Below are positions 634 through 10,964 of a stretch of 64,000 bases of DNA, piece after piece. The translations under genes were made by a program, and so were the position numbers. The notes beneath the pieces were generated by a model. The model ran no database searches. It saw nothing but the letters and a program-made list of their open reading frames with translations, and was not told where the DNA came from. Source of the stretch: an archaeon (GTDB taxonomy: Archaea > Thermoproteota > Nitrososphaeria > Nitrososphaerales > Gagatemarchaeaceae); assembly GCA_016432545.1 (NCBI GenBank), contig CP066694.1, forward strand, positions 496,001-560,000, read 5' to 3'. Position 1 is the first letter of the stretch, and every line of letters starts with the position of its first letter.

Positions 634-1722
634 TTACCTCGTCGTCTCTGCAGACTTGACCGCCATGTAGAGGCGCCTGGCGGCAGGGTCTTTCTCGAAG
701 TGCTCCCTGATCGGAGAGATTATCCTGTCCAGAGACTCCCCTACACCCCTCTTCAGGTCCGCCGGGTGCAGCTTGCCAGCGAGGAAGGCTGTTTCCAGCT
801 CCTCATAGGAGGCGAACTCCTCGTTGCCGCCGAACTTCTCAGGCCGCTCGACCTTGAGGGTCTTCTGTTTCCTGAAGATGATGTACTTCGAGTACTCCAT
901 TGGAGCGTTCCCTTCGAGGACCTTCGCAGGGCAGTAGGCAGAGTTGAGCTTCTTCAGTATCACTTCTTTGCCGTCGTGCACGAAGATCGATGTCTCAGGC
1001 TTGCTCTTGCTCATCTTGCTGGTGATCTCCGAGTCCACCGCCGCGCTCTCGTCGAAGCCCTCCGCCTCCTTCTTCCCCTGCAGCCCTATCAGCATGTGAT
1101 GATGTATTGCCACTGGCTTCTTCCACTTCATCTTCTCCGCGATCTCTCGAGCGAGTATGTTGGCCCTGCGCTGGTCGAGGCCGAGCTGGCATATGTCCAC
1201 GTCCAGCCAGAAGATGTCGGCGACCTGCATCATCGGGTAGAAGAGCTGGGCCGTATGGACGGCCTCCTTGGTCGTCCGGCCTGCGATGGTAAGCGCCCTC
1301 TGAGTCCGTGCCAGGGTAGTCTCCTGTGCGACCGTGACCACACGCTTCCAATAGTCCTCTTGCCTGGCGGCCTCGCTCGTCCAGAGGACCTCGACCTTTG
1401 ACATGTCGACGCCGGCCGCGCGCCACACCTCCACGAAGTACTTCCCGACCTCCTGGATCTTGTCCAGGTCGCCGCCCATCTTGTTGTTGACCCAGGCGAA
1501 CCAGTCCGCTATCCAAAGCTTCATCTTGACCCCGGCCTTGACCATGTCCTCGACGAGGATCGGCCTCAAGACTCCGAAGGGGAGGTGGGCGAGCCCGCTG
1601 GGCTCGAAGCCGTCGTATGCGGTCGGATGGTCGTTGGTCTCCAAGAGGGTCCGGAGCTCCCTCTCAGTGATGATCTCCTCGCCGACACCCTTGAGGAGGC
1701 TCATCCTGGACTCGAGGTCCAT
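634..1722 (-). CDS. tyrS: Tyrosyl-tRNA synthetase
   Basis: This class I aminoacyl-tRNA synthetase of 362 residues charges tRNA-Tyr in the cytoplasm. The HIGH-type signature is PSGLAHLPFG at residues 41-50, and the second signature KMSKS occurs in the C-terminal third. Length and lack of a bacterial S4-like tail fit the archaeal/eukaryotic TyrRS type. That type recognises a C1-G72 pair, and the tRNA-Tyr gene at 6182-6340 in this window has that pair. The start is the ATG at 1722. The Mut7-C gene follows 15 bp downstream on the same strand. Confidence 0.95.
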   Translation of the reverse strand: MDLESRMSLLKGVGEEIITERELRTLLETNDHPTAYDGFEPSGLAHLPFGVLRPILVEDMVKAGVKMKLWIADWFAWVNNKMGGDLDKIQEVGKYFVEVWRAAGVDMSKVEVLWTSEAARQEDYWKRVVTVAQETTLARTQRALTIAGRTTKEAVHTAQLFYPMMQVADIFWLDVDICQLGLDQRRANILAREIAEKMKWKKPVAIHHHMLIGLQGKKEAEGFDESAAVDSEITSKMSKSKPETSIFVHDGKEVILKKLNSAYCPAKVLEGNAPMEYSKYIIFRKQKTLKVERPEKFGGNEEFASYEELETAFLAGKLHPADLKRGVGESLDRIISPIREHFEKDPAARRLYMAVKSAETTR

Positions 1723-6080: not shown

Positions 6081-6148
6081 GCAACGGCACCGGTAGAAAC
6101 CCGCGCCGACCCGAGCGCGTATTATTGCTTTGCTCGAATCTCGGAAAC

Positions 6149-6160
6149 CCTTAAGAAATC
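6149..6160 (+). promoter_or_regulatory. TATA box of the tRNA-Tyr gene
   Basis: CTTAAGAAAT is centred about 28 bp before the first base of the tRNA, the expected archaeal spacing. No open reading frame competes for it on the plus strand. Confidence 0.6.
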
Positions 6161-6181
6161 TTTGACGCTCGCCCGTCTCGT

Positions 6182-6340
6182 CCCGCGGTAGCTCAGCCTG
6201 GTAGACCTCTCAAGAGGACCAAAAGCTTCCGGCTGTAGTGGTCGGCCATCGGCTGACCCGTTCAGCCTACTCAGGCCACAGTCACCGGAGTGTCGTCGGC
6301 TCAAAAGGACCGCAAGGTCCTCAGGATCCGACCCGCGGGA
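6182..6340 (+). tRNA. trnY: tRNA-Tyr (GTA) with three introns
   Basis: Removing three segments gives a perfect 74-base cloverleaf. Acceptor CCCGCGG (6182-6188) pairs with CCGCGGG (6333-6339), with discriminator A at 6340. U8 and A9 follow, then D-stem GCTC (6191-6194) pairs with GA+GC (6204-6205 and 6225-6226). Anticodon stem TCCGG (6228-6232) pairs with CCGGA (6285-6289) around anticodon GTA (6235-6237). T-stem GTCGG (6295-6299) pairs with CCGAC (6328-6332). The inferred introns are about 6206-6224 in the D-arm (19 nt, internal hairpin CCTC/GAGG), about 6239-6283 at 37/38 (45 nt), and about 6305-6325 in the T-loop (21 nt, internal hairpin GGACC/GGTCC). Exact splice points may slide by one or two bases. 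C1-G72 and A73 are archaeal tyrosine identity elements. Confidence 0.9.
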
Positions 6341-6532
6341 TTTCCCTTTCTCGGGCTTATTTCGTCAATCCGAGGGCGTTTCCAGCCTTCTTTTCCATAG
6401 GGAGGGTGTCAGGAATGGGCAGGGCGTATGGGGTCTTGTAGGTGCGCATCGAACTTCATCCTCGGAAGATAGCCTCCCCCTACTTTCCTATCCAGGCAAC
6501 GCTTATGGAGCCGAGCCGAAGGGCGCCCAACA

Positions 6533-10100: not shown

Positions 10101-10964
10101 TTGACCCCCTCAGGTCCGGTGGCGCAAGGGAAGATTCCTGCCCTAGAGTCGAGGTTGAAGGCATACGATGAATTTTCGTCGATTAGACACCACAGAGCAC
10201 GGGTCCATGTGGTGGCGGACATCACTTCCAAGTATGGCATTTCAAGCACAACAATATACTCGTGGTACAGGGGAAAGACCCCTTGGGGTAAGAGAGCGGG
10301 GAGGGTGTCCATTGTCCCTGAGCTCTTGTATGTCCTCGGCGCTCTGTTAGGTGATGGATGCATATACCACTGGAGGGGAGTCTTCCAGGTCTGGCTGGTA
10401 GGAGATAGGAAGTTCGTTCAGAAGTACGCCATGAAGCTCGGGCGCTGCCTTGATAGAAACGTTCCCTATTACAAATATGGTTCTAAGAATGCGTGGTTCG
10501 TAAGGGTCAATAACTCCGAGCGTTACTTCCTTCTAAGGGACATTCGCAAGAATCACGGCTTGCTTCAGGATCTGGTCAACAGGGTGGGCCGCAACCGAGG
10601 ATTGCTCGAACTTGTGGAGGGGTTCTTCGACGCAGAGGGGTGCGTGAAAGCCATCAAGGAGCGTCAAAGGAAGACCGCAAAGATCTGTCTTGACGTCTGC
10701 AACACCAATCTTGGTCTGATCAAGGTCATGCAACTCTCCATTGCTGAATCGTTGCACATCCCTTCGAAGATTTCGATTCAAAGACCCAAGCCACCTCGAG
10801 TTACCGCCTATCACCTCAGAATTTACAAGAAAACAGACGTGAAGCGGTTCTTGTCAATCGTACCTACGACCAAGCTCAGGGAGAGCAGGCGGCGTTTAGC
10901 AGAAGTCTGGTTTGCGAAAAAAGGGCGATGGGGAAAGTCTACTTTGCAACTTTCCCGAGTCTAG
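10101..10964 (+). CDS. Free-standing LAGLIDADG homing endonuclease
   Basis: The 287-residue protein has two LAGLIDADG-type motifs, LGALLGDGCIY (near residue 78) and LVEGFFDAEGCV (near 170), each with the acidic residue for metal-dependent cleavage. An N-terminal helix-turn-helix-like segment (YGISSTTIYSWYRG, about 45-58) may help bind DNA. Two motifs in one chain imply a monomeric enzyme with a pseudosymmetric site. It is not inside a recognisable intron or intein: the flanking genes are complete. It is less GC-rich than its neighbours, consistent with transfer. Its last 26 bases overlap the end of the convergent sod gene. Start is TTG 10101. Confidence 0.85.
   Translation: MTPSGPVAQGKIPALESRLKAYDEFSSIRHHRARVHVVADITSKYGISSTTIYSWYRGKTPWGKRAGRVSIVPELLYVLGALLGDGCIYHWRGVFQVWLVGDRKFVQKYAMKLGRCLDRNVPYYKYGSKNAWFVRVNNSERYFLLRDIRKNHGLLQDLVNRVGRNRGLLELVEGFFDAEGCVKAIKERQRKTAKICLDVCNTNLGLIKVMQLSIAESLHIPSKISIQRPKPPRVTAYHLRIYKKTDVKRFLSIVPTTKLRESRRRLAEVWFAKKGRWGKSTLQLSRV

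Follow-up and report, generated by a model that had tools for sequence, protein, structure and literature searches.

The window (the whole stretch of DNA that was analysed, 64,000 nt long) corresponds to bases 496001-560000 of an archaeal genome that is complete in a single contig of 1,504,237 bases. At window positions 6182-6340 it carries a gene for tRNA-Tyr(GTA), which can be parsed into four exons and three putative introns; a tyrosyl-tRNA synthetase gene is located 4.5 kb away on the other strand. The features are as follows:

6182..6204 (+): exon 1, tRNA positions 1-22, with D-loop A14-A21 at 6195-6203 (from the parse, 21/21 stem pairs)
6205..6223 (+): putative intron 1, 19 nt, site 22/23; central helix 4/4; absent in three relatives
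6224..6238 (+): exon 2, tRNA positions 23-37, with anticodon GTA; G30-G34 at 6231-6235, U35 at 6236
6239..6283 (+): putative intron 2, 45 nt, canonical site 37/38; CTGT (32-35) pairs with ACAG, central helix 4/4
6284..6305 (+): exon 3, tRNA positions 38-59 (from the parse)
6306..6326 (+): putative intron 3, 21 nt, T-loop site 59/60; inner stem GGACC/GGTCC; CTCA against TCAG, 3/4; absent in eight relatives
6327..6340 (+): exon 4, tRNA positions 60-73, ending with A73 (from the parse); CCA is not encoded
634..1722 (-): tyrosyl-tRNA synthetase gene (PF00579, E 6e-39)

Excision of 6205-6223, 6239-6283 and 6306-6326 yields a 74-nt tRNA with 21 of 21 stem pairs, anticodon GTA, a C1-G72 pair and A73. 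An earlier sequence-only reading of this DNA had proposed such a 74-base cloverleaf after removal of about 19, about 45 and about 21 nt; the lengths are exactly 19, 45 and 21, and the gene ends that it gave (C1 at 6182, A73 at 6340), its C1-G72 pair with A73 and the hairpins that it placed inside the D-arm and T-loop inserts (CCTC/GAGG and GGACC/GGTCC) are all reproduced by the parse. A match to some other RNA family would have spoken against that reading; Rfam gave no relevant match. The unspliced gene was detected neither by ARAGORN nor by Rfam, in the window or in 6100-6400, as is expected for a tRNA interrupted three times. No second tRNA-Tyr was found when the whole genome was searched with the mature sequence. 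The same gene occurs throughout the genus, with a DNA identity of 85-94% and with mature exons that differ by 4.1% on average between members. The locus is best explained as the cell's single, functional tRNA-Tyr gene; joined with the introns and the guide role discussed below into one statement, this is what we consider probable. Among named contigs, the closest relatives of the tyrosyl-tRNA synthetase come from Nitrososphaerales/Thaumarchaeota metagenome-assembled genomes.

The only departure of the mature tRNA from the invariant bases is C54 (window 6300), where U54 is usual. C54 is common to most of family f1 and to f8, and in many relatives it pairs with a G of the 59/60 intron.

The parse was applied to 77 relative loci (a few of them the same gene fetched twice), and in all of them removal of the introns leaves 21/21 pairs. 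The parser gave a bonus for splice-helix pairing; a bonus-free parse, adjusted only among placements with an equal product, returned the same main sites. All junctions meet the bulge-helix-bulge (BHB) criterion of 3-nt bulges and a 4-bp central helix, the one at 59/60 in a relaxed form. At 22/23, exon TGGT pairs with ACCA, the bulges are AG|A and AA|A, and the inner stem is CCTC/GAGG. The central helix at 59/60 has one C-C mismatch in the window; the perfect partner, TGAG, is found in many relatives. As a control, the true register was compared with registers shifted by 1-3 nt. The central helix had on average 3.97 of 4 pairs at 22/23 (at most 2.41 in the slid registers), 3.98 at 37/38 (at most 2.02) and 3.52 at 59/60 (at most 1.77). 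Exon and intron also compensate each other at 59/60: position 54 forms C-G in 15 cases and U-A in 16, with 18 mismatched (eight of these from one close group), and position 57 forms A-U in 44 cases and G-C in four.

Relatives that lack one or both of the non-canonical introns bear on the boundaries. The D-arm intron is missing from this gene in L074 and L079, the T-loop intron in L041, L042, L051, L055, L056, L058 and L070, and both in L075; within the genus, the losses are those of L075 (both), L074 (D-arm only) and L041, L042, L051 and L055 (T-loop only). In every intron-minus relative the exon joint is the predicted one, e.g. GGTAGAGC and GGCTCAAATCC. The inserts are thus dispensable units, and their boundaries are settled. 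Together with the BHB pairing above the slid controls, these relatives support the three introns claimed in the sequence-only reading, whose D-arm and T-loop sites, there called non-canonical, can now be specified as 22/23 and 59/60; the helices by which it proposed to check the junctions exist, with 4/4, 4/4 and 3/4 pairs. Removal of each of the three introns at a BHB is, we infer, nearly certain, an inference made from the anatomy of the gene and from its relatives in the absence of RNA data. A chance cloverleaf was considered and rejected in view of the BHB pairing above the slid registers, the intron-minus relatives and the conservation across the genus.

The genome encodes two EndA paralogues. 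L028 (alpha) has the Tyr-His-Lys triad; its best PDB matches are 3p1z and 3ajv, and its nearest relatives are the enzymes of Aeropyrum, Sulfolobus and Pyrobaculum. L029 (beta-like) keeps the EndA fold, and the matching His is missing. A catalytic L028 combined with a His-less L029 points to an (alpha beta)2 EndA, a type of broad specificity that accepts non-canonical introns as well (PMC6379350).

According to the sequence-only reading, such a gene would extend the range of three-intron tRNAs, known mainly from Thermoproteales. A Nitrososphaerales gene does have three introns by our parse, and it is a clean example outside Thermoproteales in which natural intron-minus relatives prove the boundaries; still, the extension is modest, since 22/23 and 59/60 are already on record as non-canonical sites (PMC4090602) and Thaumarchaeota had been noted to have multiple non-canonical introns (PMC8450103). 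Each of the three sites is of a known kind, and so is the three-intron state. Like the multi-intron tRNAs of Pyrobaculum, Thermofilum, Caldiarchaeum and Thaumarchaeota, the gene combines several BHB introns, canonical and non-canonical, with 22/23 and 59/60 among the sites (PMC4090602, PMC8450103, PMC3293823). Unlike them, it is a Nitrososphaerales tRNA-Tyr whose set of sites is conserved within the genus apart from graded losses; its relatives reach four and five predicted introns rather than the reported three.

In the order, the sites of tRNA-Tyr introns include 9/10, 15/16, 22/23, 30/31, 37/38, 53/54, 58/59 and 59/60. Four-intron genes are predicted in family f14 (22/23, 37/38, 53/54, 59/60), in families f4 and f5 (30/31, 37/38, 53/54, 59/60) and in one f1 genome (L076), where a V-arm intron is included and the T-loop junction is weakly placed. 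Two f14 genomes of different genera (L176 from G114 and L180 from G100, at about locus position 1500) have five putative introns, at 9/10, 22/23, 37/38, 53/54 and 59/60, with central helices of 4/4 at all of them. The reported maximum is three introns per archaeal tRNA (PMC8450103, PMC4390854, PMC3293823, PMC4033280), and no report of archaeal tRNAs with four or five introns was found in the literature searched. Five introns in one tRNA would exceed that maximum; the four- and five-intron genes come from metagenome assemblies, and their splicing is inferred. How far the disruption of a tRNA gene can go is an open question that these genes make testable.

Several side observations concern tRNA gene structure more generally. 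In L178, L179, L181 and L182 a second copy of exon 1 (CCCGCGGTA) is located in the leader of a four-intron tRNA-Tyr, no more than 150 bases before position 1500; this copy, followed by the apparent 9/10 intron of the relatives, is a possible trace of intron loss via exon-1 duplication. L183 and L184 have tRNA-Tyr introns at 15/16 (inside the D-loop), 30/31 and 37/38, so that the D-loop strand of the guide helix proposed below is interrupted. Many other tRNA genes of the genome that contains the window (G000; loci L007, L011, L018, L020, L022, L023 and L151) apparently have one or two introns. A rough genome-wide intron solver gave apparently two introns in tRNA-Val(TAC) of L022, and by the same solver the Pro tRNAs of G000 seem to be interrupted near the 5' end; the solver was usable for many genes and failed on tRNA-Tyr and on heavily split genes, and the counts it gave should be taken as a rough lower limit. 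The window also contains, at 10101-10964 (+), a free-standing, homing-endonuclease-like ORF with a LAGLIDADG_3 domain (E 6.7e-8).

The most unusual feature of the gene is located in its ordinary-looking 37/38 intron and was overlooked in the sequence-only reading. This intron is present in 66 of 66 distinct tRNA-Tyr genes examined in the order, and in the genus its mean identity is 92%, compared with 70% for the D-arm intron and 64% for the T-loop intron. Such conservation called for an explanation, and the intron was therefore examined further. It contains the following elements:

6240..6258 (+): 8-bp hairpin GGTCGGCC-ATC-GGCTGACC, which would be the guide's upper stem
6263..6267 (+): CAGCC, proposed 3' guide element, complementary to G30-G34 directly 5' of U35
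6268..6277 (+): strand TACTCAGGCC, complementary to D-loop G15-A21; the pairing (8 bp, one C bulged out) is the proposed lower stem
6278..6280 (+): ACA box, 15 nt past the residue facing U35 and 3 nt before the intron end

Each of the order's 66 distinct introns contains CAG[CT][ACT]-N9..11-ACA (with one CGG variant). As CAGCC complements G30-G34, the distance from ACA to the residue that faces U35 can be read off; in all introns examined it is 14, 15 or 16 nt. Archaeal H/ACA RNAs follow the rule that their ACA box is 14-16 nt away from the uridine they target (PMC7991803). To extend the comparison to the phylum, 300 genomes were searched with the pattern GCTGTAG, a gap and CAGYYTRNYNRGC, from which ACA was left out. 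The pattern matched in 81 of the 300 genomes, as opposed to a handful with the reversed pattern; some matches in those 81 genomes fall outside tRNA genes. Among 40 tRNA loci fetched after a partial-motif search of the phylum, 39 have ACA at the expected distance, and one has AAA instead.

The lower stem was assessed with a regular expression that 99 sequences fit, 98 of them forming all eight pairs; seven sequences fall outside the expression, mostly by small changes in the strand. The expression fixes several pairs by construction, leaving only the partners at 17 and 20 as free tests. At position 17 (n=99) the pairs are C-G in 71 sequences, U-A in 27 and U-G in one, with no C-A; at position 20 (labelled 20a in the script, n=99) they are U-A in 82, U-G in nine and C-G in eight, again with no C-A. 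Within each of the families f9, f13, f18 and f27, C17 and U17 both occur, each with its matching partner, which means that the double change arose repeatedly. Fisher tests of the covariation were not corrected for shared ancestry. The sequences, the pairings, the covariation and the spacing are observed facts.

We also weighed a trans-acting role for the excised intron, in which GGTC (6240-6243) would serve as the 5' guide for G37-C40, and rejected it: outside the order this segment is not conserved, and the lower stem requires the exon.

We consider it probable that this is a three-intron tRNA-Tyr whose 37/38 intron doubles as a cis-acting, H/ACA-like guide for pseudouridine 35. In the precursor, the intron strand TACTCAGGC would pair with the D-loop as the lower stem, CAGCC would pair with G30-G34, and U35 would be left unpaired below the intron hairpin, with the ACA 15 nt further on as the anchoring site of Cbf5. 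Cbf5 with Nop10 and Gar1 would then convert U35 to pseudouridine before splicing; afterwards ACAG would re-pair with C32-U35 and form the splicing motif for EndA. The guide fold and the splicing fold are mutually exclusive, hence the modification should precede removal of the 37/38 intron. The D-arm intron uses the same TGGT in its own splice helix, and it would therefore have to be spliced earlier or be still unpaired when the lower stem forms, or else its helix would have to alternate with the guide fold. The action of Cbf5, the choice of U35 as the target and the order of the steps are inferred without support from RNA, and we regard them as reasonably likely. That the pre-tRNA-Tyr intron is a cis guide of the H/ACA type, built jointly from intron and exon, across much of Thermoproteota seems to us somewhat likely.

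Could the conserved parts of the 37/38 intron of an otherwise ordinary multi-intron tRNA merely fold the precursor for splicing, with no role in modification? Long-range pairing could indeed steer folding, and 78 of the 105 introns have an ACA that overlaps the splicing helix (within ACAG, the BHB partner), so that splicing alone would conserve it there. The other 27 introns, which come from 16 families, build their splice helix with another motif further downstream, yet retain the ACA (once AAA) at the 14-16 nt spacing; splicing does not explain the ACA in these. Moreover, CAGCC lies exactly one step from U35, with the spacing of H/ACA RNAs. We thus find a splicing-only role unlikely. A further account, in which the locus is a decayed tRNA pseudogene carrying insertions, has in its favour only that standard finders miss the gene, and deserves next to no credence: this is the sole tRNA-Tyr found in a complete genome that encodes the cognate synthetase too, and its mature exons diverge by only 4.1% in the genus, against D-arm and T-loop introns that are 64-70% identical.

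A different question is which enzyme would act on U35. Pseudouridine 35 is a known modification of archaeal tRNA-Tyr, made by aPus7 or, in Sulfolobus and Aeropyrum, by a trans H/ACA RNA (PMC6313347); TruD/Pus7 makes it in other archaea (PMC6313347). The genome of the window encodes both Cbf5 and TruD/Pus7, and TruD was found in 75 of 101 genomes searched. The fold of D-loop and intron might then present U35 to the protein-only enzyme, with Cbf5 uninvolved, much as the Pus7 of eukaryotes is known to need the intron for making pseudouridine 35 (PMC11408192). Yet TruD/Pus7 was not found in the listed f9 and f13 genomes (several at least 94% complete), where the intron element is intact, and a protein enzyme leaves the ACA and its spacing unexplained; we take this possibility to be quite improbable and retain the Cbf5-dependent guide as the preferred reading. 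TruD/Pus7 was also not found in f5 and part of f14 (several near-complete genomes); it is present in most of the order.

Is the element an H/ACA RNA? The ACA 14-16 nt from the target uridine, the 3' guide complementary to the sequence 5' of the uridine (CAGCC to G30-G34) and the lower stem adjoining the ACA are all present, the last built with the exon D-loop. No conserved 5' guide strand that would complete a bipartite pocket was found, and the hairpin sequences vary freely between families. No kink-turn or kink-loop was found in the upper stem: the hairpin in the window has eight contiguous pairs and a 3-nt loop, and the other introns were judged by inspection. No curated Rfam family gave a relevant match. 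With the kink-turn and the 5' guide missing, two features that archaeal H/ACA RNAs usually have, the element was not filed as canonical H/ACA; it would work like an H/ACA guide without being a canonical H/ACA RNA, and both the binding of Cbf5 and the pseudouridine product are inferred. The 37/38 intron is the main new point of this work. The literature searched did not describe any tRNA-Tyr intron with an H/ACA guide; it did not cover Muller 2009 and Bernick 2012, and for that reason the novelty is provisional.

The pre-tRNA-Trp intron with its box C/D guide (Haloferax, Pyrococcus) is the closest precedent, being also a tRNA intron that guides modification in the anticodon region of its own tRNA (PMC6313347, PMC11408192). 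The two differ in chemistry and build: the tRNA-Trp intron is a C/D guide for 2'-O-methylation of positions 34 and 39, whereas the tRNA-Tyr intron has H/ACA features aimed at pseudouridine 35, with a lower stem formed with the exon D-loop. For the same residue, a trans H/ACA RNA was predicted in Sulfolobus solfataricus and Aeropyrum pernix (Muller 2009, as far as it is summarized in PMC6313347). Within the limits of that summary, the likeness lies in a predicted H/ACA-guided pseudouridine, and the difference in a separate RNA gene acting in trans there as opposed to the tRNA's own intron acting in cis here.

Incomplete H/ACA features have a parallel too. The Pyrobaculum H/ACA-like RNAs of Bernick 2012 reportedly lack some of the usual features, and some are said to have only a 3' guide. 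They are reported to be independent small RNAs with kink-turns; the tRNA-Tyr element is without a kink-turn, and an exon strand is part of its stem. The atypical nature of the Pyrobaculum RNAs was confirmed (PMC7991803).

In eukaryotic pre-tRNA-Tyr, Pus7 modifies the same residue, and an intron at the same position is required (PMC11408192). There the enzyme is a stand-alone protein for which intron length matters and not a specific structure, while here a guide pairing and an ACA box are conserved. If the proposed mechanism is true, pseudouridine 35 depends on the intron in these archaea as it does in eukaryotes, but is made under RNA guidance, and there would be a selective reason to keep the canonical tRNA-Tyr intron while other introns, up to five in all, accumulate freely around it. 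Why the tRNA-Tyr intron is so persistently kept has thereby become a testable question: if the intron guides pseudouridine 35, its retention is functional in archaea as it is in eukaryotes, but by way of RNA guidance.
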